From an uncultured Bryobacteraceae bacterium (GTDB lineage Bacteria > Acidobacteriota > Terriglobia > Bryobacterales > Bryobacteraceae): 36,153 bases of DNA. Below the pieces are notes generated by a model. The model had not been told where the DNA came from and made no database searches. It saw only the letters and a program-made list of their open reading frames with translations. Below, one piece after another: positions 1,932 to 22,399 of the stretch (position 1 is its first letter; every line of letters begins with the position of its first letter). The stretch is taken from assembly GCA_938027685.1 (NCBI GenBank), contig CALJAM010000028.1, positions 1 through 36,153 on the forward strand. The letters run 5' to 3'. The position numbers and the translations under genes are program-made.

Positions 1932-1940
1932 GCGGCGGCG

Positions 1941-2011
1941 GACCCGGCCGGCCGGAGACGGAGCGTTCGACGGAGCTTGACTAGGGGCATTTCGCTCCAG
2001 CCGGCCGGGTC
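1941..2011. terminator. Inverted repeat between convergent genes, possible bidirectional terminator
   Basis: Bases 1941-1957 and 1995-2011 form a 17-bp inverted repeat with one mismatch (core GACCCGGCCGGC / GCCGGCCGGGTC) and a 37-nt loop. It lies between the converging receptor and MEMO-AMMECR1 genes. There is no T tract, so intrinsic termination is uncertain. Confidence 0.35.
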
Positions 2012-2143
2012 GCTCTTCAGCGTACCCGCTGCCGGAAGCGTCCTATCTTTGGTCGGCAAAAGCCTGCGGGATGCGGGCTCGGGAGCCGTACTCCCCGAGA
2101 GCCGGCCAACCCTGCCCTGCGCGTCGACGCACCCGCCTCTCCC

Positions 2144-3571
2144 TCAGCGGATGATCTGCGCGCGGAAGACGTAAATTCGCGTGTCCGGATCGCGGTACAC
2201 GTGAGGACCCGTACCCGCCTTTCTGGCCAGTGCCTCGAAGAACTGATCGGCCGTCCAGTGGCGCTCGGTCGCCACTTGCGGCAGCAGCAGCCCGTGATGC
2301 AAGCCCGAATGCAGCACCGCCCCGTGCTCGTTGACGCGGAACGCGCTGCGGTCGGCAATACGCTTGAAAGGTGAGAGCACCGAGATCTCGATCTCCAACC
2401 CCGTCTCGTCTCTTCCCACCGGCGGGAACCGCGTATCGTCGAGCGCTGCCGCCAACGTCATCTCGGGCACCGTTCTCGCCAGCGACTCCAGCGCGGCCCG
2501 CCTGCCGACGCAGCCGCGTAGCTGGCCGTCTTTGTGCAACGTCACGAAGGCCGCTGCCCGCCGCTCGAGCGCCAACGTGCCCCCTTCGGGTAAAATCGGA
2601 CGCCGCTCGCCCGTACGCTGGTAATGCTCCAGCGTGCGCCTCGCGCTTTCCAACAGCGCCGCCTGATCCTGCGGCCCCAAATGAAAAGCCGAATACGGAA
2701 AATAGCCCAGGGCGGCGTAACTGACCGAGTGGCGATAATCCCCCGTGATCTCGCCGGAAGTCTGGTAGTCGAGCGTCTCTTGGAAAATTTCGTCCTGGCT
2801 CTCTAAACGCCGCAAGGTGGCCAGCAGCAGGCTGATCGGCTCATATCCGCAGAGCGTCGCGCGGGTGCTCCGCAGCGTCTCAAGGAACAGCTCCGGGCGG
2901 AGACTACCGGCCGCCTCCATGAGACTTTCGTCCAGATCGCGCAACCGGTCCGCCACCCACGCATCCGCCGGAAAGGGTTCGTAGTGGAAAGACTTGCCGT
3001 AGTGCGTGAAATCCGAGCTCGCCAGCAATACCGTGCCTTCCCGCACCAGCCCCGCCAGCACCCCGGCGGCCTCTTCACGCACCGCCGGATCCAGGTGGCT
3101 GACGTAGAGCGGAAGCAGTGACGCCGACGGCGCCACCCGGTTCAGGAACGGCAGTTGAATTTCAACCGAATGGTCACACAGGCTGGCCTCCTGCAGAAAG
3201 CCAAACTCCGGCCGGGCAGCCAGTTCGGAGGCTAATGTGCGATCCAGCGCGATCTCGCCGAGCGGCGTGCGGTACGCGTCGATCCGAGGGATCCAGACGC
3301 CGGGCGGCGCGCCCCGATGACAGAACCCGAGCAGCACGATGCGGCGCGGCCCCATCTGCTCGATGTACCGATACACCGCTGCCGCTACTACACCCGAGTA
3401 CACGATGCCCGCGTGCGGAACCACGAAAGCGAGAGCTCCGGGCGTCAGGTAAGGACCCGTGCGGGACCGAGAGTCCGCGAAGACTCTCTCCAGCAGATCG
3501 CGTAGTTCGGAAGGATCGTCCGGATACCAGGACCCCGCATAGGGCGACTCATGGGAAACAGCGCCGGGCAT
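2144..3571 (-). CDS. MEMO-AMMECR1 fusion protein (AmmeMemoRadiSam B+A)
   Basis: One 475-residue chain joins two proteins that are usually separate. Residues 5-290 are a MEMO-family domain (class III dioxygenase fold, AmmeMemoRadiSam protein B) with the metal-site signatures VPHAGIVYSG (His53), GFCHRG (His85), CDHSVEIQLPF (residues 132-142), SSDFTHYG and Cys241 in LCGYEP. Residues 300-475 are an AMMECR1 domain (protein A) with the diagnostic LRGCVG at 351-356 and DTRFPPV. The biochemical role of the bacterial pair is not established; it usually co-occurs with a radical SAM enzyme (AmrS), which is not in this window. The start is chosen at ATG 3569-3571 because GGAGGG stands 7 nt before it. The frame stays open to GTG 3622, but that start has no ribosome site and the extension is low-complexity. 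Cytoplasmic; single-gene unit. Confidence 0.88.
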   Translation of the reverse strand: MPGAVSHESPYAGSWYPDDPSELRDLLERVFADSRSRTGPYLTPGALAFVVPHAGIVYSGVVAAAVYRYIEQMGPRRIVLLGFCHRGAPPGVWIPRIDAYRTPLGEIALDRTLASELAARPEFGFLQEASLCDHSVEIQLPFLNRVAPSASLLPLYVSHLDPAVREEAAGVLAGLVREGTVLLASSDFTHYGKSFHYEPFPADAWVADRLRDLDESLMEAAGSLRPELFLETLRSTRATLCGYEPISLLLATLRRLESQDEIFQETLDYQTSGEITGDYRHSVSYAALGYFPYSAFHLGPQDQAALLESARRTLEHYQRTGERRPILPEGGTLALERRAAAFVTLHKDGQLRGCVGRRAALESLARTVPEMTLAAALDDTRFPPVGRDETGLEIEISVLSPFKRIADRSAFRVNEHGAVLHSGLHHGLLLPQVATERHWTADQFFEALARKAGTGPHVYRDPDTRIYVFRAQIIR

Positions 3572-3626
3572 GACCGGCCCTCCAGGCGGACCGCCGTTGC
3601 TCCGCCGGTCCGCGGCCATCACGAGT

Positions 3627-3632
3627 ATTGTA
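3627..3632 (-). promoter_or_regulatory. Possible -10 box (TACAAT) for the MEMO-AMMECR1 gene
   Basis: TACAAT on the minus strand would start transcription near 3620 and give a leader of about 50 nt that contains the GGAGGG site before ATG 3571. No convincing -35 was found. Confidence 0.35.
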
Positions 3633-3781
3633 ATGCGCCAAGCCCCTCACCGCGATCCCTTTCTGCTGGCGGCTTGCACCGGACGGGGGCCATGGTGAAT
3701 CCGATAAACTGATGGGATCGGCAGCGAAGACCGCTCGACTGACCCGTAACTGAAGCTTAACTTTTTGACTCGGGAGGCAAA

Positions 3782-5095
3782 ATGCAACCCCGTGGTCCTC
3801 ACCCGCTCTCGCCCCGACGCGACGGTGCGCCGCTCTTTGTCCTGGCGCTGCTTCTGGCCACCGCCGGCGCGCTCCTCAGCTTGCAACAAGCTCCTGAGCA
3901 AGGCTACCCACCGGCGCCCTATCCTGACCGCGTGATCCTGACGTGGTCGGAAGACCCCGCCACGACCATGTCCGTTACCTGGCGGACCGACACCACCGTC
4001 AGCCGCGGCGTGGCCGAAATCGCTGACGCCGTCGACGGCCCCGACGTTGTCAAGCACGCCCGCCGCCTGGAAGCTGCGACCGAGCGCTACCAAACCAACG
4101 CCGGCGCCGCCCACAGCCATAGCGTCACCTTCAGGGGGCTCCAGCCCGGCCGCGCCTACCTTTATCGCGTCGGCGACGGCTCGCGCTGGAGCGAGTGGAA
4201 CCAGTTCCGCACCGCGGGAAAGCCGGGTGACCCGCTCACCTTCCTCTATCTCGGAGACGTACAAGCCGACATCCATGCCCTGTGGGCTCGCGTCATCCGC
4301 CAAGCCTTCGCGGCCGCCCCCGACGCCCGCTTCATCGTCTACGCGGGCGACCTCATCAACAACAACGATCGTGACGAACAATGGGGCGAGTTCCACGCCG
4401 CCGCGGGCTTCATTCACCGCATGATCCCCGTGTTGGCCGCGCCCGGCAACCACGAGTACAGCCTCTCGGATCGGCGCATCAGCCCCAACTGGCGACCCCA
4501 GTTCGCCTTCCCCGTTAACGGCCCCGCGGGCCTCGAAGAAACCTGCTACTGGCTGGATATCCAGGGGCTCCGCCTCGTCGTGCTCAATTCGGTCGAACGG
4601 CGCAAGGAGCAGGCCGAATGGCTCGAGGGCGTCCTCGCGCGCAATCCTGCCCGATGGACGGTCGTGGTCTTCCACCATCCGATCTACTCCAGTGCGCGCG
4701 GTCGCGACAACAAGGAAGTACGCGAGCTCTGGCAGCCGATCCTTGACAAATACGGCGTGGATCTGGTGCTCCAGGGCCACGACCACACTTACGCCCGCAT
4801 CGGGCCGACACGTTACGGCGACGCCTCTTCCGGCAACGGCGGCCCCGTCTATGTGACCTCCGTCAGCGGGGCGAAGATGTACGAGATGGATCGCCCGCAA
4901 GCCTTCCAGCGCGCCGCCGAACAAACGCAGCTCTTCCAGGTCGTCCGGATCGACGGTGACCGGCTGAGCTTCGAAGCTCGGACGGCCTCCGGTGCGCTTT
5001 ACGACGCTTTCCAACTTCGCAAGCGGGCCGACCGCTCGAACGAGTTTCGCGATCTGGCGCCCCAGACCCCGCCGCGCCTGCGCAAAGCCGCTTGA
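3782..5095 (+). CDS. Purple-acid-phosphatase-like metallophosphoesterase, exported
   Basis: A 437-residue protein with a hydrophobic N-terminal signal or anchor (residues 17-34), a fibronectin-like purple acid phosphatase N-domain (residues 48-145, SVTWRTD and AYLYRVGDG) and a calcineurin-like catalytic domain (150-420). All five metal motifs are visible: LGDVQ (Asp159), AGDLINNN (Asp190), PGNHEYS (Asn223, His224), VVFHHPIY (His298/299) and QGHDHTYAR (His333, His335). The Tyr of the canonical GDLxY motif, which gives purple acid phosphatases their Fe(III)-tyrosinate colour, is Asn193 here. A dinuclear phosphoesterase is therefore likely, but a purple enzyme is not. It probably hydrolyses phosphomonoesters or diesters outside the cytoplasm. 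The start ATG has GGGAGG at 3772-3777, 4 nt upstream. The Gfo/Idh gene follows 85 nt downstream on the same strand. Confidence 0.87.
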   Translation: MQPRGPHPLSPRRDGAPLFVLALLLATAGALLSLQQAPEQGYPPAPYPDRVILTWSEDPATTMSVTWRTDTTVSRGVAEIADAVDGPDVVKHARRLEAATERYQTNAGAAHSHSVTFRGLQPGRAYLYRVGDGSRWSEWNQFRTAGKPGDPLTFLYLGDVQADIHALWARVIRQAFAAAPDARFIVYAGDLINNNDRDEQWGEFHAAAGFIHRMIPVLAAPGNHEYSLSDRRISPNWRPQFAFPVNGPAGLEETCYWLDIQGLRLVVLNSVERRKEQAEWLEGVLARNPARWTVVVFHHPIYSSARGRDNKEVRELWQPILDKYGVDLVLQGHDHTYARIGPTRYGDASSGNGGPVYVTSVSGAKMYEMDRPQAFQRAAEQTQLFQVVRIDGDRLSFEARTASGALYDAFQLRKRADRSNEFRDLAPQTPPRLRKAA

Positions 5096-5140
5096 GCCGC
5101 TAACCCGAACCCCGACCCAGGCGCCCCGCGAAACCTCCAG

Positions 5141-5169
5141 GGCGGTTGTACACTGTTGCTGAAACCGCC
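5141..5169 (+). promoter_or_regulatory. Stem-loop with -10-like TACACT in its loop, before the Gfo/Idh gene
   Basis: GGCGGTT (5141-5147) pairs perfectly with AACCGCC (5163-5169). The 15-nt loop holds TACACT (5149-5154), a possible -10 box. The right arm ends directly before the AAGGAGGT ribosome site (5170-5177). It could be an operator or simply chance; no known regulator motif is recognised. Confidence 0.3.
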
Positions 5170-5180
5170 AAGGAGGTCTT

Positions 5181-6479
5181 ATGCTCGTCCATACCGCTTC
5201 ATGGCCCCGCCGACGCTTCCTGACCGCCTCTCTTGCCCTACCCCTGACCGCCCGGCAGCGCGTGCGCGTGGCTCTGGCCGGCACCGGCCACCGCGGCACC
5301 GGCACCTGGGGGCGGGACCTGCTCGAGCAGCTCGGCCACCGCGTACAGCTCGTCGGCCTGTTCGATATCAACCGCAAACGGCTGCAGGTCGCCCAACGCC
5401 TCATCGGCGTGGATGCTCCCCTCTACACCGACTTCGACCGCATGGTGCGGGAGACCAACCCTGACTACGTCATCGTCACCACCAAGGACTCCACCCACCA
5501 CGAGTACATCATCCGCGCCATGGAACTCGGCCGCGACGTGATCACCGAAAAGCCCATGACCACCGACGAGGTCAAATGCCAGGCCATCCTCGACGCCGAG
5601 AAGAAGACGGGGCGCAAGGTCATCGTCACCTTCAATTACCGCTACTCCAATACCGCCCAGAAACTCAAGGAACTGCTGATGGCGGGAACGATCGGCCAGG
5701 TTACTTCGCTCGACTTTCATTGGTATCTCGACGTCTATCACGGGGCCGATTATTTCCGCCGCTGGCATGCCTATCGCGCCGACTCGGGCACCCTGTTCGT
5801 ACACAAAGCCACGCACCATTTCGATTTGGTCAACTGGTACCTCGATGCCGATCCGGTCGAAGTGACCGCTTTCGGCGCTCTGCGCAAATACGGCCGCAAC
5901 GGCCCCTTCCGCGGCACGAACTGCCGCACGTGCCCTCACAAGGATAAGTGCGAGTTCTACTGGGACATGACGCGCGACAACCGCCTCATGCAGCTTTACG
6001 CCGAGTGCGAATCCGAGGACGGCTACTACCGCGATGCGTGCGTCTTCCGCGAGGACATTGACATCTTCGACACCATGGTCGCGCAGGTACGTTACTCCAA
6101 CGGCGCCTTGATGAGTTATTCCCTGAACGCCTTCATGCCTTACGAGGGCTACCATCTCGCCTTCAACGGCATGAACGGCCGCATCGAGGTCCGCGTCTAC
6201 GAGCGCCAGCCCTGGCAGGTGCCGCCGCAGGACGAAATCCGCGTGACCAAGAATTTCGGCAAATCCGAGGTGCTGGTGATCCCTCACGCCAAAGGCGGGC
6301 ACTTCGGCGCCGACCCGCGCTTGCGCGCCATGATTTTCGATCCGGCCATGCCCGACCCGCTCAGACAGCGCGCCGGTTCCCGCGCCGGCGCCATGTCGCT
6401 TCTCACGGGCGTGGCCGCCGTCAAGAGCGCCGACGCCGGGGGACAGCCCGTCAGGATTTCCAGCCTCGTGCGACTCTGA
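5181..6479 (+). CDS. Gfo/Idh/MocA family oxidoreductase with Tat signal
   Basis: A 432-residue NAD(P)-dependent sugar or cyclitol oxidoreductase. The N-terminus PRRRFLTASLALPL (residues 9-22) fits a twin-arginine signal, so folded export to the periplasm with bound cofactor is likely. The Rossmann fold starts at residue 27 (VRVALAGTGHRGTG), EKP is at 123-125, and the catalytic segment with VHKATHHFD is at 207-215. A cysteine cluster (Cys248, Cys251, Cys257, Cys276, Cys287; NCRTCPHKDKC) is inserted after the catalytic segment. Similar CxxC...C insertions occur in a subgroup of this family; they look metal-binding, but this is unproven. The start is set by a perfect AAGGAGGT 3 nt upstream. The substrate cannot be deduced. 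It may be co-transcribed with the phosphoesterase gene upstream, though the stem-loop in the gap suggests its own control. Confidence 0.88.
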   Translation: MLVHTASWPRRRFLTASLALPLTARQRVRVALAGTGHRGTGTWGRDLLEQLGHRVQLVGLFDINRKRLQVAQRLIGVDAPLYTDFDRMVRETNPDYVIVTTKDSTHHEYIIRAMELGRDVITEKPMTTDEVKCQAILDAEKKTGRKVIVTFNYRYSNTAQKLKELLMAGTIGQVTSLDFHWYLDVYHGADYFRRWHAYRADSGTLFVHKATHHFDLVNWYLDADPVEVTAFGALRKYGRNGPFRGTNCRTCPHKDKCEFYWDMTRDNRLMQLYAECESEDGYYRDACVFREDIDIFDTMVAQVRYSNGALMSYSLNAFMPYEGYHLAFNGMNGRIEVRVYERQPWQVPPQDEIRVTKNFGKSEVLVIPHAKGGHFGADPRLRAMIFDPAMPDPLRQRAGSRAGAMSLLTGVAAVKSADAGGQPVRISSLVRL

Positions 6480-6500
6480 GGGACCGCTTGATCCGTCGCC

Positions 6501-6519
6501 CAGCGGGGCGCTCCCGCTG
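6501..6519. terminator. Compact hairpin between convergent genes
   Basis: CAGCGGG (6501-6507) and CCCGCTG (6513-6519) form a perfect 7-bp GC-rich stem with a 5-nt loop. It lies in the 45-bp gap between the stop codons of the Gfo/Idh gene (+) and the DUF2007 gene (-), as expected for a shared terminator. A T tract is lacking. Confidence 0.5.
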
Positions 6520-9212: not shown

Positions 9213-10265
9213 TCAGGTTCCCTCAACGGGCGGCGCGCCGCCGCGAACCGTTTTCTCCAGCTCCTCTACCTTCTTCCTCAATTCTCGCATCGTCCTAAGC
9301 AGCTCCGGCAACCTGGGAAACGCCGTCACCGCACGACGCCACACGGCCGCATCGAAAGCCGGCGAGCCCGCCACCGACACTCCCGCCGGAACGTCACCGC
9401 CCACACCCGCCTGCGCGTACACCACGGCGCCTTCGTGAATGGTCAGATGCCCTGCCGCCCCCGCCTGCCCCGCCATCACCACGTTCCGCTCCAGCACCGT
9501 GCTTCCCGCCAGCCCCACCTGCGCGCACAGGATCGCGTTTTCCCCTACCACGCAGGCGTGACCCACCTGCACCAGACTGTCGATCTTTGCGCCCCGTTTC
9601 ACTCGCGTCTCGCCCACCGTAGCCCGATCGATCGAACACAGCGACTGGATCTCGACGTCGTCTTCGATCACGGTGATCCCCGACTGTACGATCTTGTAGT
9701 GCGTGCCGTCGGCGCGGTGCGCAAAGCCGAAGCCGTCGCCGCCTACCACCACGCCGTTGCCCAGCGTGACCCGGTCCCCGATCCGGCAGAACTCGCGGAC
9801 CACCGCATGGGAGTGCGCACAGAAATCGTCGCCGATGCGCGCGCCCTGGTAAATCACCACGTGCGGGTAAATCCGCGCGTTGCGTCCGATCACTACGTCT
9901 TCGCCGATCACCGCGAAGGGGCCCACGTAGGCGTTCTCCCCGATCCGCGCCGAGGGCGCGATCCAAGCCAGCGGGTGAATGCCCGGCTCCGGCCGAGGCG
10001 GCCGGTAGAAAAGCTCCAGGGCCCGGGCGAAGTCCAAATAGGGATTCTGCGAGACCAGGGTGGCGATCGGACGTACGCGCACCGGCTCCGACGCCAGAAT
10101 CGCGGCCGCTCGCGTATCTCGCACTTTCGGCGCGTACTTGGGGTTGGCCAGAAAGGTCAGCTCCGTCGGGCCTGCCTGCTCGATGGCTGCCACTCCTGTG
10201 ATCTCGATCTCGCCGTCACCCACCAGCTCGCACTCCAAGTAATCGGCAATCTCCCGTAGTTTCAT
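9213..10265 (-). CDS. lpxD: UDP-3-O-acylglucosamine N-acyltransferase LpxD
   Basis: A 350-residue protein matching LpxD, which adds the second, N-linked hydroxyacyl chain to UDP-3-O-acyl-glucosamine in lipid A synthesis using acyl-ACP. Residues 1-95 are the uridine-binding N-domain (TELTFLANPKY). Residues 97-305 are a left-handed beta-helix of hexapeptide repeats with the signature GGDGFGFA (175-182). Catalytic His236 lies in VQVGH and the second conserved His273 in AAGHLTI. The C-terminus (ELLRTMRELRKKVEELEKTV) is the helix that packs the trimer. The start ATG 10263-10265 has GGGAG 6 nt upstream; an upstream GTG/ATG extension to 10319 is less likely. It shows that the organism makes lipopolysaccharide. 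Other lpx genes are absent here; the LOG gene follows in the operon. Confidence 0.95.
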   Translation of the reverse strand: MKLREIADYLECELVGDGEIEITGVAAIEQAGPTELTFLANPKYAPKVRDTRAAAILASEPVRVRPIATLVSQNPYLDFARALELFYRPPRPEPGIHPLAWIAPSARIGENAYVGPFAVIGEDVVIGRNARIYPHVVIYQGARIGDDFCAHSHAVVREFCRIGDRVTLGNGVVVGGDGFGFAHRADGTHYKIVQSGITVIEDDVEIQSLCSIDRATVGETRVKRGAKIDSLVQVGHACVVGENAILCAQVGLAGSTVLERNVVMAGQAGAAGHLTIHEGAVVYAQAGVGGDVPAGVSVAGSPAFDAAVWRRAVTAFPRLPELLRTMRELRKKVEELEKTVRGGAPPVEGT

Positions 10266-10332
10266 GACGCTCTCCCTGACGCTCGAGGCGCGGCCGGCAA
10301 AGCGCTCGCACGGCCGCACCCTGCTGACAGGT

Positions 10333-10345: not shown

Positions 10346-13138
10346 ATGAGGTTCGCCATCGGCGTGCTGTGGGCTGCTGCCATCGCTGTGGCCCAGCAGC
10401 CGGCCGCGCGGAGCGAAATCGAAAAGGCGATCGAGGAGTTCCGCACCCAATCCCGACTGCTCGGGCTCCGAGGCGAGAGCGTCGGTCAGCGGCGCGCCCC
10501 CGCACGGCCCAGGTTTCACGGCCGCCTCTTCGAAAACCTGCGCAACGACGCCCTCGATGCGGTGCCGCACGAGGTCCGCCAGCGCGGCGGGACCAAGTCC
10601 ACGCTGCGTCGCAATCAGTTCGGCTTCAACCTGGCCGGCCCCCTCATCCTTCCGCGCCTTTACCACGGCGGGCGCCGCACCTACTTCTCGGTTTCCTACG
10701 AGGGCATGCGTGAACGTATTGCCCGGTCCTATCTGCGAACCGTTCCCACTCTGCCGGAACGCACGGGCGATTGGTCACGAACGGTCGATCAGGCCGGCAA
10801 TCCCCTGCCCATCTACGATCCCGCCGGCACCCGGCGCAACCCGGGCTTCGATCGCAGCCGACCGGTCACGCGCGACAATCTTGAATACTTACGCGAACCC
10901 TTCCCCGGCAACCTCATCCCCACGACGCGCCTGGATCCCGTCGCCCAGCGCGCCTTGGCCTTCTACCCCGCCCCCAACGCCAGTGTGGGGCCTTTCTTCC
11001 GTAACAACTACTTCATCCACACGCCCGAAACCAACACCGCCGACGGCGTGATCCTCCGGTTCGACCACACTCTCGCCGCCAACCACCGGCTCACCGCCAA
11101 CGCGGCGCTCTCGAACGGATTCCAGGGCCCGGCGCCCTGGTTCCCCACCGCCGCCAACCCCGCCCCGCCCGAGCGCGACTTCGCCAACCGCCGCGCCTCG
11201 CTCGAACACGTCTTCACCATCTCGCCCCGCACCGTGAATAGTTTCAGTTTCGAAGCCTCGAGCAATGCGTCCACCGGCGGCGCTTCCGTGCGCAGGCATT
11301 TCGCCGCCGATTTGGGCCTCAAGGGGGTGCCCGGCGAGGGCTTCCCCAACTTCCGTTTCCAACCCTACCTCTCCATGGGCCGCTCCTATCCTATCTCGCG
11401 CACCGCTCGCAATCAGTACGAATGGACGGAAAGCTTCTCGACCAAGCAGGGCCCGCATAACTGGCGCATTGTAAGCCGCTATATCACCCCCCAGGTCAAT
11501 ACTTACTACCCGCAATATCCTGCCGGCACCTTCCGCTTCGGCGACGGACTGACAGGCCTGCCCGGCATCGTAAATACCGGTCACGCTTTCGCCAGTTTCC
11601 TTCTCGGCTTGGCCGAGTATGCCGAGGTAAGCGTGGTGGGCTCGCCCTCCTACTTCCGGGCCGGCACCGCAACCGCCATGTTGCGACACTCTTGGGAGCT
11701 CTCCGACCGTTTCACCCTGCACTGGGGCATCAACCTTGACGTACATACCCCGCGTGTGGAAAAGTACGACCGGCAATCCACCGTGGACTTGAACGTGATC
11801 AATCCGGTCAACGGACGCAAGGGAGCCCTCATATTCGCCGCGCGCGACGGCAACGGGCGTGCCTTCCAACCCGTGCGCGCCAAGCTCGAACCCAGTGCCG
11901 GCGTCTCCTGGAATCCCTTGGGCGATTCCAGAACCGTCCTCCGCCTCTCCTTCGCGCGCGGTTACTCCGGCTTCCCCATTTACTCCGTGCAGTGGGGCAC
12001 GCAAGGTTTCAACGGCACTCCGACCTATATCTCGCCGAACGTGCAACTCGAGCCCGCCCTCCGGTTGGCCGACGGCCTGCCGCCGCCCTCCCGCCCGCTC
12101 CCCGATCTGCGCCCCGAGGCCGCGAACGATACCGTCGCCGATCTCATGGATCGCAGCCGCCGGCAGCCCGTTTACCAGTCGGCTTCTCTGAGTCTGGAAC
12201 ACCAGGCGCCCGGCTCCGTAGTCGTGACGATCGGAGCCGCCTATTCGGGCGGCCGCGACCTGCTGGTCGGCAACTGGGCCGCCAATCCTAACGCCATTCA
12301 CCCCGACGCGCTTCGCTTCCGCGACCAACTCAACGACGAACAGTTCAACCGCAGCCTGCGCCCCTACCCCCAATTCAAGGGCTTCGACGTCTACAGCTCC
12401 TGGCCCCTCGGCCGCTATCACCGTGACGCCGGCTTTCTGCGCGTGGAAAAGCGCGCCTCTCACGGCTTGACGCTAAGCTTCTACTACGAGTTCTCCAAAC
12501 AGCTCGACGATTACTCCGGCCCCTACGGCCGGCAAGATCACTTCAACCGCCGCAACGAGTGGTCCTTGACCGCCTACAACCGCCCGCACACGCTCTCCTT
12601 CAGTTGCATTTACGAGCTCCCCTTCGGACCGAACAAGCCCTTGCTCGCCTTCCCCGACTGGCGCCGTCATCTCGTCGACGGCTGGTCGGTCAGCGCCATC
12701 TCCACTTACGCGAGCGGCGAACCCGTTGCGCTCCGTCCGCAGTTCAACAACACCGGCGGCGTGCTGAGCGCCCTCAACGTGGACGTGGTGCCCGGCGTCA
12801 ATCCCCGCGTCGCCCGGCCCGGGCCTGAACTCTGGTTCAATCCCATGGCCTTCGCTCACCCCGCCGATTTCAGCCTGGGCAACGCCTCGCGCACCCATCC
12901 CTTCCTGCGCAACCCCGCCAACCAGAACCACGACCTCTCGCTCACGAAACGCTTCGCCGTGGGGCGCGACCGCACGCTCGAGTTCACCGCCATGGGCCTG
13001 AACTTCATCAACCACGCCAACTGGGAAGACCCCGACAACGTCATCGGACCCGCAGGCGCGCCGAACGTCAACGCCGGCAAGATCATCGGCTCCCGCGGCG
13101 GGCGAATCATCCAGCTCGGCTTGAGATACAGCTTCTGA
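10346..13138 (+). CDS. Oar-like TonB-receptor barrel lacking the N-terminal regulatory and most of the plug domain
   Basis: A 930-residue outer-membrane beta-barrel. A signal peptide (residues 1-16, MRFAIGVLWAAAIAVA) is followed by a short charged segment (SEIEKAIEEFRTQSRLLGLR). The chain then enters the Oar-type sequence directly at FHGRLFENLRNDALDA, which normally lies near the end of the plug. After it come RRNQFGFNLAGPLILP, FSVSYEGMRER, LIPTTRLDPVAQRALAFYP, HAFASFLLGLAEYA and a standard barrel ending LGLRYSF. The carboxypeptidase-like domain, the TonB box and most of the plug are absent, although both chain ends look complete; family members are usually longer. It may be a constitutively open or non-TonB barrel. 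It is the first gene of a tight operon: the next gene starts 1 nt after the stop. Confidence 0.85.
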   Translation: MRFAIGVLWAAAIAVAQQPAARSEIEKAIEEFRTQSRLLGLRGESVGQRRAPARPRFHGRLFENLRNDALDAVPHEVRQRGGTKSTLRRNQFGFNLAGPLILPRLYHGGRRTYFSVSYEGMRERIARSYLRTVPTLPERTGDWSRTVDQAGNPLPIYDPAGTRRNPGFDRSRPVTRDNLEYLREPFPGNLIPTTRLDPVAQRALAFYPAPNASVGPFFRNNYFIHTPETNTADGVILRFDHTLAANHRLTANAALSNGFQGPAPWFPTAANPAPPERDFANRRASLEHVFTISPRTVNSFSFEASSNASTGGASVRRHFAADLGLKGVPGEGFPNFRFQPYLSMGRSYPISRTARNQYEWTESFSTKQGPHNWRIVSRYITPQVNTYYPQYPAGTFRFGDGLTGLPGIVNTGHAFASFLLGLAEYAEVSVVGSPSYFRAGTATAMLRHSWELSDRFTLHWGINLDVHTPRVEKYDRQSTVDLNVINPVNGRKGALIFAARDGNGRAFQPVRAKLEPSAGVSWNPLGDSRTVLRLSFARGYSGFPIYSVQWGTQGFNGTPTYISPNVQLEPALRLADGLPPPSRPLPDLRPEAANDTVADLMDRSRRQPVYQSASLSLEHQAPGSVVVTIGAAYSGGRDLLVGNWAANPNAIHPDALRFRDQLNDEQFNRSLRPYPQFKGFDVYSSWPLGRYHRDAGFLRVEKRASHGLTLSFYYEFSKQLDDYSGPYGRQDHFNRRNEWSLTAYNRPHTLSFSCIYELPFGPNKPLLAFPDWRRHLVDGWSVSAISTYASGEPVALRPQFNNTGGVLSALNVDVVPGVNPRVARPGPELWFNPMAFAHPADFSLGNASRTHPFLRNPANQNHDLSLTKRFAVGRDRTLEFTAMGLNFINHANWEDPDNVIGPAGAPNVNAGKIIGSRGGRIIQLGLRYSF

Positions 13139-13139
13139 C

Positions 13140-14057
13140 ATGACGCGCGCGCTTGGCCTGCTCGTCTGTCTTACCCTGCTGGCCGCGGGCCAGACCGCCC
13201 GCGTCCTCCGGGTCCCGGTGTGGGCCGACGCAGGCAACGGCCCCGCGGAGTCGCTCTCCGCCGGCGCTCTGAGGGTCTCCGTGGCGGGCGGCGCCGCTCG
13301 CGTGGTGCGGGTCCTCGGACCGGAAGCCGAGTTACTCCTCCTGCTCACCCTCGACATGACCGAAGAACTCAGCCTCGCCGATCTGGCCCGCGAAGCACTG
13401 GCCGGCGAAATCCGCGCCCTCCCGGACAACGTCTACATCGCCTTGCTCCGCGCGCAGGACGGCTTGAGGGTGCTGGTCGATCCCACCCGCGAACGCGAAC
13501 CCGTATTACGCGCCCTCCGCGAACTGCCGATCAGCGGCAAGGCCGGTCTGCTGGAGACTCTTCCCGCCGCCTTCAAGTTGGCCGACGCGATCCAGCAGCG
13601 CAGCGCCGTGCGCGTGGCCCTGCTCTACGTGACCGACTCCAACGTGTACAATTACCGCGACGACTACATCAATCCCGTGGTGAACTGGAGCGACCAGCAT
13701 GATCTCAGCCGCCGCTTTCCCGAAGGCCTCATCAAGGAAAAGATTGCGCGCCTGCTACGCCAGCTCGCGCCCTATCAGACTCCGCTTTACATCGTGCATC
13801 TGAACTACCGCAGCGACCGGGTGAACGAAGCCTACCAGTCCGGGCTGATGCAGCTGGCCTCCGCCCTCGGAGGCGCCAGCCAATTCTGCCGTAGCCGCCA
13901 GGAAATCCCGCAAGCCGTCGCGGCCGCCCTGGCGCGCCTGAACCGTATGTACCGCGTGGATGTCGAGGCTTCCCTCCGGCGCGACGGTAACGTGCAAATT
14001 AAAATCGAAAGCGAAGCCGGAGCGCTCTCCTACCGCGACCGCTTCGTGCTGCCCTGA
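13140..14057 (+). CDS. Secreted VWA-like protein with degenerate MIDAS
   Basis: A 305-residue exported protein (signal peptide about residues 1-18, MTRALGLLVCLTLLAAGQ) resembling the VWFA-related proteins common in Acidobacteriota. After a small N-terminal strand region (20-60) a von Willebrand A-like fold begins at LLLLLTLDMTEELSL (65-79). The metal-binding DxSxS motif is altered to DMTEE (Asp72, Thr74), while a second acidic site remains in LLYVTDSN (Asp166). It ends with a strand-rich region (VQIKIESEAGALSYRDRFVL). VWA domains typically mediate protein-protein contacts; the partner may be the barrel encoded immediately upstream or the coiled coil downstream. The ATG lies 1 nt after the preceding stop codon, so translational coupling is likely. 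Family assignment rests on pattern only. Confidence 0.68.
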   Translation: MTRALGLLVCLTLLAAGQTARVLRVPVWADAGNGPAESLSAGALRVSVAGGAARVVRVLGPEAELLLLLTLDMTEELSLADLAREALAGEIRALPDNVYIALLRAQDGLRVLVDPTREREPVLRALRELPISGKAGLLETLPAAFKLADAIQQRSAVRVALLYVTDSNVYNYRDDYINPVVNWSDQHDLSRRFPEGLIKEKIARLLRQLAPYQTPLYIVHLNYRSDRVNEAYQSGLMQLASALGGASQFCRSRQEIPQAVAAALARLNRMYRVDVEASLRRDGNVQIKIESEAGALSYRDRFVLP

Positions 14058-14067
14058 GGAAACCTCG

Positions 14068-14901
14068 ATGAGCCCACTGCTGGCCTCGCGCCGTGGCCCA
14101 ATCCTCTTGGCCGCCCTCGCCGTCGTGACCGTCGCCGCCGTCGTGGCGCTGCTGGTTCAGACCTGGCGCCGGACCGAGCTGGCCGCGAAGCTTGCCGCGG
14201 CCGAAAATCGCATCGAGCAAATCGAGGAGCGTGCCGCCCGTGCCCTGGCGGAGAACGAGGCGTTGCGCGAGCGGCTCGCGGAACTCGGAGAAACACCCCC
14301 GCCGGCGCCTACCGTGTCCCGCCCTTCCCAGGGCGCCTCCAGCCTCGAACAGGCCCGCCTGTTGGTGAAATTGCAGCAGCAACTCTCCGCCGCCGAGAAT
14401 GCGCTCAGTGAAGCCGAAGGCCGCGCCCGAGAGCTCGAAGGCCAACTCCAGCGCGCGCAGGAGGAGTCGAAGCGTCTGGCCGGCGCGCTGGAGGAGTACA
14501 CAGAGAAGCTCGCCGGCCAAGCGCGTGTTCTTGAAGCCGTCCAGGCCGAGCTGAAGACGCGGAACGAGCGCCTCGTTCAACTGGAGGCCAACAATCTGCT
14601 TCTGCACAGACAAAACCGGCAGGTCGAGGAAGAAAGTGCGCGCCTTCGCTCGCTCCTCCGTGAACTGGAGGAAATCAACCGTCGCCGCGAAAACGCGCTG
14701 GCGGCGATCATGCGCCGCTACCGCGAGCTGGCGGACCAGTTCCGCGCGCTGGCCGTGCCATCGCCGGAGCCCGGCGAACCACGCACGGCAGACCTGTCGC
14801 GCGTGCAAAACACTCTAGCGATGACCGAAGACGAGTTGCGCCAATTGAGCAACCTCAACGCCCAGGCCGCCCGGCTGCAGCGCCAGCTTGAAAAACGCTA
14901 A
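14068..14901 (+). CDS. Membrane-anchored coiled-coil protein
   Basis: A 277-residue protein with one membrane helix near the N-terminus (about residues 11-31, ILLAALAVVTVAAVVALLV). The rest is almost all coiled coil: heptad-rich stretches at 35-80, 95-230 and 245-277, broken by a proline-rich hinge at about 76-85 (TPPPAPTVSRP) and a second break at about 231-240 (PSPEPGEP). It has no catalytic motif. The shape suggests a scaffold or tether spanning the periplasm or reaching into the cytoplasm; topology is ambiguous because positive charges flank both sides of the helix. The start ATG has GAGGA 7 nt upstream and lies 10 nt after the VWA gene stop, so it is the third gene of the operon. No named family is recognised. 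Confidence 0.75.
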   Translation: MSPLLASRRGPILLAALAVVTVAAVVALLVQTWRRTELAAKLAAAENRIEQIEERAARALAENEALRERLAELGETPPPAPTVSRPSQGASSLEQARLLVKLQQQLSAAENALSEAEGRARELEGQLQRAQEESKRLAGALEEYTEKLAGQARVLEAVQAELKTRNERLVQLEANNLLLHRQNRQVEEESARLRSLLRELEEINRRRENALAAIMRRYRELADQFRALAVPSPEPGEPRTADLSRVQNTLAMTEDELRQLSNLNAQAARLQRQLEKR

Positions 14902-17455: not shown

Positions 17456-19657
17456 TTACTCCTCCGGCCTCGGAGCCGCCAGGCCCCGTACGGGTACCCC
17501 ATGAGCGGCGGCGTAACTGCGCGCCGCCTTTTCCACGCCCCGCAACCATTCATCAAGCCCGATGCTGCGCTCGGGCGCCATCATGAAAGTCAGATCGGGC
17601 GTGCGGTCCGCCCAATGATCCTTGGTGTCATCGAGCACGTGGACGAAGTGCCGTCCGCCGACGGAACGCCCTTTGGGAAAACGGCTTTTCTCGAAGACCG
17701 CGGTCAGTTCGGCGAAGATCCGTTCGTTCGCCTCGCGGCGCCGGCTGATCGCATTGTGCGCCGCGACCAGATGCCCGACCGCCCTGGCGGCCTCTCCCTT
17801 AGCCGCCGCAGCCTCGGCCTGAACCAGCGCCCGCTCGGCGTCGGCCATCGCCTCCAGCAGCCGCCAATGGCCGCCGATGAAGCGCGCCAGCGCCAGCAGC
17901 ACCTCCAGGTTGTAACGGTTCCTCTCCGCGCGGGCGATGTTTTCCTGGAGGGCGTGTACGAGACGGTCGTTCTCCAGTCTCCGCGCCGGCGCTTCACGAA
18001 AACGTTCACCGTACTTTTCGCTCAGCCGTCGGCTGAGCTTGAGGTCCGGCAGCTCCGGCGTGGCCGGCGCCTCCAGCGTCAAATCGTAACGCGTCGTCCC
18101 GTGCCCTTTGCCGTAAGAGTTACCATAGCCCGGCCCGCGCACCCGGGATACGACCCGCTCCCAGCTTCTTTGCCACGCCCGCGCCTGCCGTTGCAGGGTG
18201 CGGTAGATCTCCACCATCCCCGTCGCCTGCGGCCCGTAATACAGCCGCATGAACTCGGCCGCGTGCTGCTCGGGACTCACCGTACATGGGTTCCAACCCC
18301 ACTGAGACACCGCCGACCAACCCAGCCAGAACGTCTCGTTGTGCAGACCCGAATCGTCCCAGGCGGCTCCGAACACCCCGATGGGATTGCCCCGCCAGTG
18401 CCGGCCTCCGCACAGATACTCGTAAGCCGCCGCCAGCCGACCGCCTCCCTCCTCGCCGGGTAAATGATCCGGAAACAGGTATTCGCTTCCTTGCATCGAA
18501 ACGTAACCTAGCTGCCGGATGCCCAGCTTGCGTTCCGGCTCCAGATACTCTTCCTCTCCGATCACGCCGTCAATCACGTCCGGCGGCAGCAGCGAAACGT
18601 GCTCGGCGAGCAGCGGATACTCAGCCCAGATGAGAATCCGTCGGCCGCGCGCGGCCAGAAAATCACGCGCCTTGCGCACGAACTCGACCCACGTCAGACT
18701 CCGGTTGACCGGATTGTAAGGCCGCGGGCAATCGCTTTCGATGCCCGCGTAATAAACCTCGTCCGTGGAGACAAAGAAATAGTCCACGCCGCGCGTCGCC
18801 TTCACTACGTCGTCGTACATGGAGAAAATAAGATCGTAAGTCTCCGGCCTGCACAGCGCGCTTTGGTAATTGTTGCCGTCCGCGCGCAGATGCGCGAATT
18901 GCGGGTGTTTCAGCACGTAGGCCATGTGGGCCGGCGCCTGCACGTCCGGCACGATTTGGATGAATCGTTCCAGCCCGTAGTTGACCAGCTCCTGTAACTC
19001 TGCGGTCGTGAAAGCCCCGGGCGCCCCTATGACCGGGTGCGAGGGATACTCGAACTTGTCCTCCAGCTCGAAGGCGATCATGTTGGCCTTCAGGCGGGCC
19101 GTCCAGTCCAGGTAACGCTTCAGCGTTTCCATGCGATCCTGGTGGTGCTTGGTGTCCCAGTGCAGAAATCGCAAGGCGAGCCGCGGCCAGTCTTCGATCA
19201 CGCAGCGCGGAGCCAGCAGACGGCCGGCCGCGTCCCGTCGCACCAACTGCACCAGCGTCTGCACCCCGTAGAAGAGCCCCTGGTCGGAGTTACCTGTGAT
19301 CTCGATGAGATCCTCGCCGACCCGCAACCGGTAAGCCTGCCGGTCGACCAGGGGCTCGGCCTTCGTCTCCACGGCCCCCGGTTTCGTACGCAGCCGGATG
19401 ACCCGCGGGCCTGAGCCCGTCCGGAGCGCGAGGCGGTGAAACTCGACCATATCGCCCGCCAGGCTCCGCACCGCGATATGGCCCGCAGACAAACCCCTCG
19501 CGTCCACCCTCCAGGATTCGTCAAGGATCACTTCGCCCGCCGCGCACTCTACGCGCTGAGGCGTGGGGATGACCGAGTACCCGCGCAGCCACAATTCGGT
19601 CGGTCCCTGAGCGGCCAGGACCGCGGCAGCCGAAAGCACGACCGCAAAAGCGCGCAT
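17456..19657 (-). CDS. GH20-like beta-N-acetylhexosaminidase, exported
   Basis: A 733-residue secreted glycoside hydrolase related to family GH20. A signal peptide (1-16) is followed by a GH20b-type N-domain (about 25-150: YSVIPTPQRVE and YRLRVGEDLIEITGNSDQGLFYGVQTLVQL) and the catalytic barrel (155-480: IEDWPRLALRFLHWD and RLKANMIAFELEDKF). The catalytic Asp-Glu pair is VSTDEVYY (Asp299-Glu300), whereas most GH20 enzymes have HxGGDE, so this is a divergent subfamily. The final 250 residues are largely helical. The probable role is release of terminal N-acetylhexosamine from chitin-like or peptidoglycan-derived oligosaccharides. ATG 19657 is preferred over GTG 19669 because TATAGT (19668-19673) lies 10 nt upstream of it. 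It is the last gene of a minus-strand run after the BtuB-like receptor and M28 genes. Confidence 0.82.
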   Translation of the reverse strand: MRAFAVVLSAAAVLAAQGPTELWLRGYSVIPTPQRVECAAGEVILDESWRVDARGLSAGHIAVRSLAGDMVEFHRLALRTGSGPRVIRLRTKPGAVETKAEPLVDRQAYRLRVGEDLIEITGNSDQGLFYGVQTLVQLVRRDAAGRLLAPRCVIEDWPRLALRFLHWDTKHHQDRMETLKRYLDWTARLKANMIAFELEDKFEYPSHPVIGAPGAFTTAELQELVNYGLERFIQIVPDVQAPAHMAYVLKHPQFAHLRADGNNYQSALCRPETYDLIFSMYDDVVKATRGVDYFFVSTDEVYYAGIESDCPRPYNPVNRSLTWVEFVRKARDFLAARGRRILIWAEYPLLAEHVSLLPPDVIDGVIGEEEYLEPERKLGIRQLGYVSMQGSEYLFPDHLPGEEGGGRLAAAYEYLCGGRHWRGNPIGVFGAAWDDSGLHNETFWLGWSAVSQWGWNPCTVSPEQHAAEFMRLYYGPQATGMVEIYRTLQRQARAWQRSWERVVSRVRGPGYGNSYGKGHGTTRYDLTLEAPATPELPDLKLSRRLSEKYGERFREAPARRLENDRLVHALQENIARAERNRYNLEVLLALARFIGGHWRLLEAMADAERALVQAEAAAAKGEAARAVGHLVAAHNAISRRREANERIFAELTAVFEKSRFPKGRSVGGRHFVHVLDDTKDHWADRTPDLTFMMAPERSIGLDEWLRGVEKAARSYAAAHGVPVRGLAAPRPEE

Positions 19658-19667
19658 ACGCCGAGAC

Positions 19668-19673
19668 ACTATA
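19668..19673 (-). promoter_or_regulatory. Possible -10 box (TATAGT) for the GH20 gene
   Basis: TATAGT on the minus strand ends 10 nt before ATG 19657 and overlaps the alternative GTG start. No ribosome site is seen. Confidence 0.35.
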
Positions 19674-19712
19674 CCACGCGTCCGCCGTCGGCTCGCGCGC
19701 TTCGGCCGTCGG

Positions 19713-20546
19713 TTACTGCGCAGGCGGGGAAAGCGTAGCGTCCAGCAGCATCAGATAGGCAGCCAGCAGGCGGTACGTATCGTAGTAGTCCTCGGCGCGA
19801 ATCGCCTCCACGGTGTCGCGCGGCGTGCCCAGGATCGAGGCCGTGTCCGCCGTCAGGGAGTACATGGAAAGCGTCGGTATCCTGGCTTCGCGAAACGCGG
19901 CCGCATCATCCTTGGCAATCTCTTCCTCGATGGTGACGCCGGTTACCGGAATTTTCATCGCCGCCGCCACACGCGCCAGATCGTTGATGAGTCGGGAATC
20001 CGACTGCTTCATCCAAACCCGCGCCGGCGCCGTGCCCAGCGAAGTCAGTTGAATCATGGCTCGCACACGTTGCCGCTCTTCACGGCTCAACTGGCGGACA
20101 TAATGCCGCGAGCCCGCGGCCGAGGACTCCTGGTCCGCGAAGCCCACGAAAACAAAAGTATGCCGCGTTGCCGCGTCCGGCAACGATTGATACAGCGTGG
20201 GCAGCAACACCGCCCCGCTCCAGTTATCCACTACGCCCTGACCGGCTTTACCCCACCAGTCCAGACGCGCGCCGACCACGATCACGTTCTCGCTCTGCCC
20301 GGGCCGCGTGCAGATCACGTTCGCAGCCTTGCTGCCCTTGACGGGCTGTTCGCGCAACTGGTCCGCCGCACACCCCGCTTCGAGGAACATCTCGCGCAGC
20401 CGCGCGGCCCGTTCGGCGTTGTCCCGGCTCACGCGATTCAGTCGGTCCTTCAGGACGGTGCGGTCCACCGATTTGAACTGGATACTCACAGGCTGGGCCA
20501 GCACGCCGGCCGCGGCGAAAACGAAAAGAAACGGAAGGTAACGCAT
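19713..20546 (-). CDS. M28 peptidase-like protein, probably catalytically inactive
   Basis: A 277-residue exported protein (signal peptide about 1-17, ending GVLA) with the M28 aminopeptidase fold. The conserved landmarks align without gaps, but key residues are changed. GAHxD is GARLD (His to Arg94). The bridging Asp107 is kept in GVVDNWSG. The catalytic Glu of FxxEExxxxGS is Gln139 in FADQESSAAGS, with Glu140 kept. The NLDMxG ligand is QLTSLG (Asp to Thr168). SDHxPF is KDDAAAF (His to Asp). Three of five zinc ligands and the general base are therefore lost, and peptidase activity is unlikely; a binding or structural role is inferred. TAGAGT lies 6 nt before the ATG with no ribosome site. 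The gene sits between the BtuB-like receptor and GH20 genes. Confidence 0.83.
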   Translation of the reverse strand: MRYLPFLFVFAAAGVLAQPVSIQFKSVDRTVLKDRLNRVSRDNAERAARLREMFLEAGCAADQLREQPVKGSKAANVICTRPGQSENVIVVGARLDWWGKAGQGVVDNWSGAVLLPTLYQSLPDAATRHTFVFVGFADQESSAAGSRHYVRQLSREERQRVRAMIQLTSLGTAPARVWMKQSDSRLINDLARVAAAMKIPVTGVTIEEEIAKDDAAAFREARIPTLSMYSLTADTASILGTPRDTVEAIRAEDYYDTYRLLAAYLMLLDATLSPPAQ

Positions 20547-20552
20547 TGTTCT

Positions 20553-20558
20553 ACTCTA
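20553..20558 (-). promoter_or_regulatory. Possible -10 box (TAGAGT) for the M28-like gene
   Basis: The hexamer on the minus strand ends 6 nt before the ATG at 20546, in the spacing seen at other putative leaderless genes of this window. It is weak by sequence alone. Confidence 0.25.
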
Positions 20559-20623
20559 CAGCATTTCCCTGCGCTCCGCGGCCCTGAACCGCCCGCGCGC
20601 CCCCGCTGCACGCGCTCCCCGGA

Positions 20624-22399
20624 CTACCGAAGCCCCCCACACAGTCGCAACTCGACGCCCGCAAGCACCGTCCTGCCCGGCATCGGCACCCCCGGAATTT
20701 CTTCGTAGCGAGCGTCATTCAGGTTGGAAACCTGTGCAAATGGGCGAATCCGCCTCCCCTCCCACGACACCGCCGCTTCCACGATCGCGTGGGCGGAACG
20801 CTGCAGCCGTTGAACCCGGTTCACACGAAGCCGCCCCGCCAACTTCTCGCCCGCCATCCCGTGCCAGCCCGCCACCACAGCCTGCACCGGGTAGTTGAAT
20901 ACGTAACGCGATTGGAACTCCCCAAGTCCCTGACGCACCCCGGTCAGCCCGGTCCACGCCGCCTCGATTCGATGCCCCGCAGCCGGCTTAAGCAACAGGC
21001 TCGCCTCGATGCCCCGCATCCGGGTCCGTTGCAGATTCATCGCCCTCCACACCTGATCGCTCGGCAGCCGCACCCAGTCGATACCGTCTCGTTCGCGCCG
21101 CTCGAACACGGTCGCACTCAACACGAAACGCTCCCCGTGCCAGTCCCCACCCGCTTCGTGGTTCCAGGCCGTCTCCGGACGAAGCTCGGGCGAACCCTGC
21201 GTGACCGGGTCGCGGTAGTACAGGTCCGTAAAACTGGGCAACCGAAAGGCCCGCGCCGCGGCCGCCCGCACTTTCAAACGCGAATTCAGCCATATGCTCC
21301 CGCTGACGCTGGGACTGAAGGGCGCCCGCCCCGGACGGTAACTCTCCTGTCTCGCACCCGCCGAAAACGAAAAACGCCGCAGCGCCCGCACGTCCCACGC
21401 CGCATAAGCCGCCGCGCGCGAACGCGCGTGGTCACCGAGGTTCGAACTCACGATCCCGTCCCGGAAAGCCTCGATCCCGTAATGCAAACGCGCGTTCAAA
21501 CCCGGCGTTTCACTGCGCCGCAGCGCACCCTGCCAGGTCTCGCTGCGATGACGGTTCACGTAAAACTCCGGCCGCGCACGGTCCAACACGAACAAGTCCG
21601 TGTGCCGCCGGTACGCCGCCGACAGATGCGTCGCGCCCCGTTTATGCCGCAACCCTCCGAACCAGGCCCGCGTGCGCTCCCATGAAGGATACGGCGCGTA
21701 AAAGCCTTCGGCCCCGAACGCACGATCTCCATAACCCAGCACCACGCTCGTGCCCGTGCTGCCGCTCTCCCGCCGCGTCACGGACGTGACCGCCAGACTC
21801 CGGTACTCCCGGTTCGGCTTGAAACCCGTACTGAAATCCCTTGCGGCCGAAACGTGCTGACTCCACCGGCCCCTGAGTCCCTCCAGCACGAGCCGCTGCT
21901 GCTGCGTCCCGTGACTGCCGCCGCCCGCGCGGACGCGCGCCTCCCCGCGCTCCGGCCTTGCCGTCACGAAATTCACTGCCCCGCCCACGGCATCGGCCCC
22001 GTATAGCGTGGAACCGGATCCGCGCAGCACTTCCACCCGCTCCAGCGCCTCCATCGTCACCGGCAGGTTCAGACTGTGATGGCCCGTCTGCGGATCGTTC
22101 AAGCGCATGCCGTCCACCATCACCAGCGTCTGCCCGAACGTCCCCCCGCGGATCGACAGATCCGACTGCACCCCGGCCGGCGCACGCGCCCGCAGATCCA
22201 GCGACGGGTCCTCACGCAGGAAATCCGCCCAAGAGGCGTACATCAGAGAAACCGCGCGCACCGGAAGCGCTCGCACGGCACGGTCAACTTCCTCCAGCGG
22301 CACGGGCTCCCAGGTGCCCGTGACGACCACCTGCTCTCGCACCGGCGGCGCAACCTGCGCCCAGGCGCCCGCCGTCAGCAGCAAAACCACGCCCCTCAT
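20624..22399 (-). CDS. TonB-dependent receptor, BtuB-like
   Basis: A 591-residue outer-membrane receptor of the compact cobalamin/siderophore type, distinct from the Oar-like ones. A signal peptide (1-14) is followed by a TonB-box-like REQVVVTGT at residues 21-29. The plug (about 35-150) has DLSIRGGTFGQTLVMVDGMR and VEVLRGSGSTLYGADAVGGA, and the region DPQTGHHSLNLPV resembles BtuB-like plugs. The barrel follows with RAFRLPSFTDLYYRDP, PELRPETAWNHEAGG and NLNDARYEEIPGVPMPGRTV. It ends RLCGGLR instead of an aromatic residue, which is unusual. The ligand may be a corrinoid or metal chelate; no cobalamin riboswitch or B12 gene is near. A TACAAT at 22420-22425 lies 20 nt upstream of the start. It is the first gene of the minus-strand run that includes the M28-like and GH20 genes. 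Confidence 0.88.
   Translation of the reverse strand: MRGVVLLLTAGAWAQVAPPVREQVVVTGTWEPVPLEEVDRAVRALPVRAVSLMYASWADFLREDPSLDLRARAPAGVQSDLSIRGGTFGQTLVMVDGMRLNDPQTGHHSLNLPVTMEALERVEVLRGSGSTLYGADAVGGAVNFVTARPERGEARVRAGGGSHGTQQQRLVLEGLRGRWSQHVSAARDFSTGFKPNREYRSLAVTSVTRRESGSTGTSVVLGYGDRAFGAEGFYAPYPSWERTRAWFGGLRHKRGATHLSAAYRRHTDLFVLDRARPEFYVNRHRSETWQGALRRSETPGLNARLHYGIEAFRDGIVSSNLGDHARSRAAAYAAWDVRALRRFSFSAGARQESYRPGRAPFSPSVSGSIWLNSRLKVRAAAARAFRLPSFTDLYYRDPVTQGSPELRPETAWNHEAGGDWHGERFVLSATVFERRERDGIDWVRLPSDQVWRAMNLQRTRMRGIEASLLLKPAAGHRIEAAWTGLTGVRQGLGEFQSRYVFNYPVQAVVAGWHGMAGEKLAGRLRVNRVQRLQRSAHAIVEAAVSWEGRRIRPFAQVSNLNDARYEEIPGVPMPGRTVLAGVELRLCGGLR

Follow-up and report, generated by a model that had tools for sequence, protein, structure and literature searches.

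A barrel, a VWA-like protein and a coiled coil in one gene block

We analysed a three-gene block on a stretch of 36,153 nucleotides from an uncultured Bryobacteraceae bacterium (Acidobacteriota), hereafter referred to as the window, which is a complete contig (CALJAM010000028.1, assembly GCA_938027685.1) within a 3.9-Mb genome (G000, the source genome). The block encodes an Oar-type outer-membrane barrel without a plug, an exported protein of the von Willebrand factor A (VWA) fold and a membrane-anchored coiled coil (Table 1). An earlier reading, made from the sequence alone, had described these three genes with gaps of 1 and 10 nt, and the corresponding open reading frames (ORFs) were all found in place: the barrel stop ends at 13138 and the VWA ATG lies at 13140 (gap 1 nt), and the VWA stop ends at 14057 and the coiled-coil ATG lies at 14068 (gap 10 nt). 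The mechanically called ORF of the coiled coil begins earlier (13960-14901); in a near relative (L007) the coiled-coil start likewise lies 10 nt past the VWA stop. The nearest named relative, a Bryobacteraceae metagenome-assembled genome (isolate SKYB110), carries lpxD, barrel, VWA, coiled coil, SIMPL and amidohydrolase genes in identical order.

Table 1. Features of the gene block and its upstream neighbour, in window coordinates
Feature	Coordinates	Strand	Basis
Oar-type outer-membrane barrel without plug (930 aa): signal peptide, conserved helix, barrel from about residue 56	10346..13138	+	Pfam, orthologue N-termini, plug HMM
Conserved N-terminal helix SEIEKAIEEFRTQSRLLGL (residues 23-41), occupying the place of the plug and CarboxypepD domains	10412..10468	+	Regular expression, orthologue N-termini
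Exported VWA-fold protein (305 aa), divergent relative of acidobact_VWFA (TIGR03436)	13140..14057	+	Pfam, profile comparison, weak model
Altered first metal-site motif, D72-M-T-E-E	13353..13367	+	Alignment of 46 orthologues
D166 and the family-specific insertion behind it, DSNVYNYRDDYINPVVNWSDQHDLSRRF (residues 166-193), holding 9 of 15 invariant residues	13635..13718	+	Alignment
Membrane-anchored coiled coil, single helix (277 aa), with conserved C-terminal block RRRE...RRYRELADQFR...LSRVQ...EDELRQL	14068..14901	+	Pfam, orthologue comparison
lpxD, divergent neighbour (context, outside the unit)	9213..10319	-	On the opposite strand upstream of the barrel in 20/57 family loci

We further compared 64 loci, 57 from the window's family (about one per genus) and seven from outside it. 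The homologues are linked and do not lie mostly apart: in the VWA profile searches described below, the barrel gene stands upstream of the VWA gene, mostly directly, in 37 of the 38 loci returned besides the window's own, which bears out the co-occurrence that had been proposed. Of the 55 family loci in the 64-locus set whose junction can be measured, 54 place the nearest possible VWA start at -4 to +12 nt relative to the barrel stop; taking the nearest start biases this measure towards small gaps. Chance spacing is ruled out by this linkage and junction, conserved across loci. Clustering of neighbouring ORFs in the 64 loci recovered the barrel in 63, the VWA protein in 62 and the coiled coil in 44, the next commonest clusters being present in 18 and 16; the unit of barrel, VWA protein and coiled coil holds together while the flanking genes vary. 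In one locus (L010), short repeated units with masked bases, possibly a repeat array, directly follow the VWA gene (~9981-10193).

The third gene is less constant. A coiled coil was counted in 46 of the 57 family loci (45 by tblastn, with L090 added by ORF clustering); among the other 11, a contig end cuts off one coiled coil that has begun (L087) and another locus (L124) ends too early, a third (L125) has none within its remaining 834 bases, and eight further loci lack one. No coiled coil was found in the seven loci outside the family, where the barrel and VWA genes alone are linked. The three-gene system of the sequence-only reading is hence real as a gene order within the family and does not extend to the seven outside loci, and because barrel and VWA protein remain linked without the coiled coil, the core is, on this comparison of loci, the barrel/VWA pair, to which the coiled coil is an addition. 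Further along the window (17456-22399) lie, in this order and on one strand, genes for a plug-bearing TonB-dependent receptor, an M28 peptidase and a GH20 enzyme.

The distribution of the VWA gene was assessed with searches of increasing depth. The single VWA protein matched 5 of 297 genomes of the phylum, one of them (G107) weakly and in two places; this candidate was set aside, as no barrel match accompanied its two weak VWA matches. A five-row VWA profile found a match in 116 of the 200 family genomes searched, nearly always in single copy (three of the 116 only at E 5e-10 to 9e-9). A second order gave matches in 8 of its 11 genomes, and one further genome, alone in its order, matched as well. 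In a phylum-wide draw with a 46-row profile, 4 of 396 genomes matched, a count that scored five candidates per genome and may miss some. Because 116 of 200 family genomes match against 4 of 396 in the phylum draw, the system, as traced by these profiles, is common in the window's family and patchy outside it. A Burkholderiales match (L008) was rejected: it covers 40 residues and lies opposite a 258-aa ORF, and no barrel was found with it.

Plug loss and VWA partnership

The plug is the gating element of TonB-dependent transporters. The window barrel matches PF25183 with E 1.5e-143, its residues 56-923 covering positions 8-838 of the 838-column profile, and a Pfam scan of it returned neither a plug nor a CarboxypepD match. 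Four paralogues from the source genome served as controls; all four carry CarboxypepD, and their barrels begin at residue 254-275. The Pfam plug model at E 0.001 matched two of these four and is thus insensitive, so the absence of the plug was judged by length and by a custom plug hidden Markov model (HMM), built from the four paralogues and then iterated. The plug HMM matched 61 of the 64 evaluable barrels of the source genome and none of 58 barrels of the window's type (type A, window included). In total, the source genome encodes 65 PF25183 Oar-type barrels (66 match rows, two being pieces of one barrel), of which one at a contig end (L143) was left out of the plug-status count. Readable type-A N-termini run from a signal peptide through a linker and the conserved helix into the barrel; the helix motif [ALIV]..[EQRI]F[KRQE] was found by regular expression in 57 of the 58, and in the 58th (L090) the helix was recognised by eye. 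A decayed barrel is unlikely, as the 58 barrels, each of at least 850 aa, have open reading frames. Sequence searches of the PDB with the barrel profile and with the VWA profile gave no match. At one locus (L136), two barrel genes stand in tandem (561-3410 and 3499-6507) upstream of the VWA gene, the first also plug-less and bearing the helix motif; the scripted analysis used the other barrel of the tandem in place of the one adjacent to the VWA gene.

We first noticed a link between plug state and VWA partner in the source genome and afterwards checked it in G393, a closed genome from a different genus. Three barrels of the source genome are plug-negative, namely the window barrel, one on contig C11 (L042) and one on contig C3 (L234). 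With VWA genes beside the other barrels called by TIGR03436 at E 0.01, a VWA gene follows two of these three and none of the 61 plug-positive barrels (chance 3 in 2016, calculated by hand). Among the VWFA matches of the source genome, the one on C11 is the sole one directly downstream of a barrel, and the window pair makes two. In G393, where some of the 61 barrel match rows are pieces, the best 30 comprise 28 plug-bearing and 2 plug-less barrels; among these 30, a VWA gene follows both plug-less barrels and none of the 28 plug-bearing ones (1 in 435, likewise by hand). VWA partnership, as read from these genomes, tracks plug loss, a point that goes beyond the sequence-only reading.

The barrel on C11 (L142 3000-8500) represents a second plug-less class, type B, in which CarboxypepD is followed by a Gly/Pro-rich stretch that replaces the plug, and the gene for a 691-residue VWA protein begins 5 nt downstream. 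This VWA partner was found in 83 of 101 family genomes, and of 30 family loci (own locus included) 28 have a barrel upstream of it; in the two barrel-less loci the contig ends ~85 bases upstream, as judged from coordinates and locus lengths. Eighteen type-B stretches were taken, of which one (L198) lacked a usable barrel, and the plug HMM was negative in 16 of the remaining 17 barrels, all from the family; the one it matched is the barrel of G356 (L175/L196). A phylum draw for the type-B VWA protein matched 50 of 149 genomes; across the 29 phylum loci examined, a barrel was present in 20 of the 21 at >=31.9% identity and in none of the 8 weaker ones. The type-B barrel/VWA pair, traced by such matches, recurs across the phylum, its plug state being read in family members.

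We then placed 84 barrels in a quick tree (L017, L237 and L144 left out), which also drew on 12 additional type-A rows and on 10 from type-B loci, with L196 counted as plug-bearing. Types A and B each form one clade (SH-aLRT 100); five plug-bearing paralogues group with type A (99), and type B falls elsewhere. This topology suggests two plug losses. A tree of the VWA proteins gave no decision on whether types A and B are sisters, and only one or two evolutionary events may underlie the association between plug and VWA gene.

The VWA-like and coiled-coil proteins

The window VWA protein scores 24.4 bits against Pfam VWA_2, below the 27-bit cut-off. By hhalign it aligns with a profile of 12 acidobacterial VWFA matches from the source genome over 244 columns (probability 99, E 8.5e-18), and on this profile evidence the protein and acidobact_VWFA (TIGR03436) are homologous. 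The protein itself was unlisted with TIGR03436 at E 0.1 and at E 1 and lies below the curated cut-off of 81.25 bits; likewise, a TIGR03436 search of the source genome at E 0.01 did not list the place of its gene, and searching that genome with the window protein at E 0.001 returned only itself. Among the 46 orthologues, 37 are matched by TIGR03436 at E up to 1, the best at 2e-14. A single-chain model, itself weak, gave 26 structure matches in the PDB at E 0.001, most but not all of which we take to be VWA folds.

The classical VWA metal site consists of DxSxS, a loop Thr and a later Asp. We aligned 46 VWA proteins from the 64-locus set, excluding doubtful starts and cut ends, with L007 standing in for its duplicate contig L082 and two starts shortened. 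The altered metal site of the sequence-only reading is upheld in this alignment: D72 and D166 are invariant in all 46 and are the only elements of the classical site to be so; position 76, the second Ser of the motif, has become Asp or Glu in 44, and one orthologue retains the loop Thr, whose position was taken from the VWFA profile alignment. Judged by these residues, the orthologues depart from the classical VWA metal site. Fifteen residues are invariant, and eight of them fall between positions 172 and 191, within or next to an insertion of ~20 residues (relative to acidobact_VWFA) that follows D166. The altered metal site together with this cluster is easier to reconcile with a fixed partner than with a varied outside ligand. 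A lipobox-like pattern, sought with a simple regular expression, occurs in 3 of the 46 orthologues and is absent from the window protein. The sole Cys of the mature protein, residue 250 (~13887-13889), is kept in 38 of the 46.

The coiled-coil protein has one hydrophobic N-terminal stretch followed by coiled coil, in line with the single-helix anchor described before, and its Pfam matches are all sub-cut-off and mostly of coiled-coil type. Across 45 sequences, conserved columns concentrate in the C-terminal third. Its N-terminus is likely on the inner side of the membrane, to judge from the flanking charges.

A possible gated channel and its relation to known systems

In the cell envelope, the products of the block look like either a gated channel or a device for display; the VWA protein probably gates or caps the pore, or else is the cargo of the barrel. 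The best-supported reading, to which we give a probability of roughly 40%, is a plug-less barrel for which a VWA protein serves as gate, cap or adaptor. What we read directly is the order and linkage of the genes, the loss of the plug, the altered metal site and the conserved insertion, whereas the location of the VWA protein, its contact with the barrel, gating, the orientation of the coiled coil and the nature of whatever is passed are inferred. The barrel would be an outer-membrane conduit descended from an Oar-kind TonB-dependent transporter and, minus its plug, an open pore when alone. The VWA protein would be exported and dock at the periplasmic mouth, where the conserved N-terminal helix of the barrel is its probable site, and it would replace the plug as gate, cap or adaptor. 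The third, family-specific protein would be anchored in the inner membrane by its one helix, span the periplasm with its coiled coil and use the conserved C-terminal block to contact barrel and VWA protein. Excerpts of PMC6434023 offer a parallel: the Oar of Myxococcus exports PopC and has a plug, with the TonB box in the plug domain, and a CarboxypepD domain; its plug-less form is less stable and does not support PopC secretion, and Oar minus plug and N-terminal extension does not accumulate. Therefore, a plug-less barrel may need a partner.

Several observations weigh against this gating model. The single-chain models are poor (pLDDT 25 for the barrel and 49 for the VWA protein), and the VWA protein may be surface-exposed or secreted. 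Spacing is looser outside the family, with a few second-order loci ~600-900 nt apart, and one genome (G497; L076/L145) has a VWA gene without an adjoining barrel, the gene in its place resembling an alpha/beta hydrolase by eye. Among type-B loci, one VWA gene (G356; L175/L196) follows a different, plug-bearing barrel, and one phylum match (L257) has no barrel. As for the plug/VWA association, the source genome and G393 carry the identical two plug-less classes and so are not independent events; L234 is plug-negative with no VWA gene listed nearby; TIGR03436 at E 0.01, by which VWA absence beside the other barrels was judged, misses the window's own VWA protein; and one barrel counted as plug-positive (L144) has its downstream side cut by a contig end. 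A single plug-less clade uniting A and B was not rejected (AU p 0.275). For the coiled coil, the flanking charges speak for an inner N-terminus in 21 of 44 sequences and against it in 11, so that its side is no more than likely. As a separate observation, the N-terminus of L234 (C3 100129-102615), which the plug HMM does not match, resembles a diverged plug by eye.

The next most probable explanation, which we regard as possible if somewhat doubtful, is that the barrel secretes the VWA protein or presents it as surface cargo, by analogy with Oar/PopC or with Glt/CglB. The close pairing of the two genes would fit. In Myxococcus, as excerpts of PMC13104615 and PMC12288465 describe, CglB is a VWA adhesin and surface lipoprotein held by the Glt outer-membrane complex, and five outer-membrane gliding components, including lipoprotein and barrel constituents, co-purify with CglB (PMC12288465); T11SS cluster 3 loci likewise pair DUF1194/VWA genes with a barrel gene (excerpts of PMC12282271). 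However, the plug-less Oar did not support secretion of PopC in the excerpts of PMC6434023, and CglB is a lipoprotein (PMC12288465), whereas the lipobox-like pattern is rare here and missing from the window protein. Moreover, the metal site used by adhesive VWA domains is altered in nearly all 46 orthologues, and such strong conservation of one insertion seems to us unusual for a surface adhesin.

Nutrient uptake, with the barrel as a substrate-specific channel and the VWA protein as a binding protein that hands over ligands, is unlikely. SusC/SusD would be a loose parallel of such a channel and binding protein, and both the descent from TonB-dependent transporters and the 65 Oar-type barrels, which point to a large uptake repertoire in the source genome, agree with it. 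Yet a barrel without a plug offers no known route for TonB to open the pore, no neighbour beyond the trio is common to more than 18 of the 64 loci, and the VWA gene is mostly single-copy. Still less likely is a structural link tying outer to inner membrane without a transport role. It would suit the membrane-helix coiled coil, present at 46 of the 57 family loci, and the lpxD gene that lies upstream at 20 of them, but at least 8 of those 57 and all seven outside loci retain barrel and VWA protein without the coiled coil. A defence system was rejected: PADLOC matched neither barrel nor VWA protein, and its six matches to the third protein were weak and of coiled-coil type.

More broadly, and tentatively, Acidobacteriota might have turned an importer into a new kind of outer-membrane gate, perhaps twice, by deleting the plug and supplying closure in trans with a VWA protein, the gate of one lineage being coupled to the inner membrane through a coiled coil instead of TonB. 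If the gating model is true, naturally occurring plug-less barrels, conserved and with a dedicated partner, would reveal how such a pore is closed, and perhaps energised, in the absence of plug and TonB. It would also give a handle on the role of the expanded Oar barrels in Acidobacteriota and a role for part of a VWA family whose model bears no functional name.

Among known systems, the window barrel shares with the Oar subclass a PF25183 barrel over the near-full profile, a comparison made through the plug-bearing paralogues of the source genome and not through the Myxococcus Oar; it differs in lacking plug and CarboxypepD, in its own conserved N-terminal helix and in having a VWA gene next in the operon. 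The VWA protein shares a homologous profile with acidobact_VWFA and differs in its metal site, its insertion and its linkage to a barrel gene. By the published descriptions excerpted above, the Glt/CglB gliding machinery of Myxococcus likewise joins outer-membrane barrels and a VWA protein in an envelope-spanning complex, but that complex has ~20 parts, and its VWA protein is a lipoprotein where ours carries no lipobox-like pattern. T11SS cluster 3, likened by gene content in such excerpts, also has barrel and VWA-like genes in one locus, with other neighbouring genes. The components belong to known families, and a literature search at the level of titles and abstract openings found no description of the barrel/VWA pairing.

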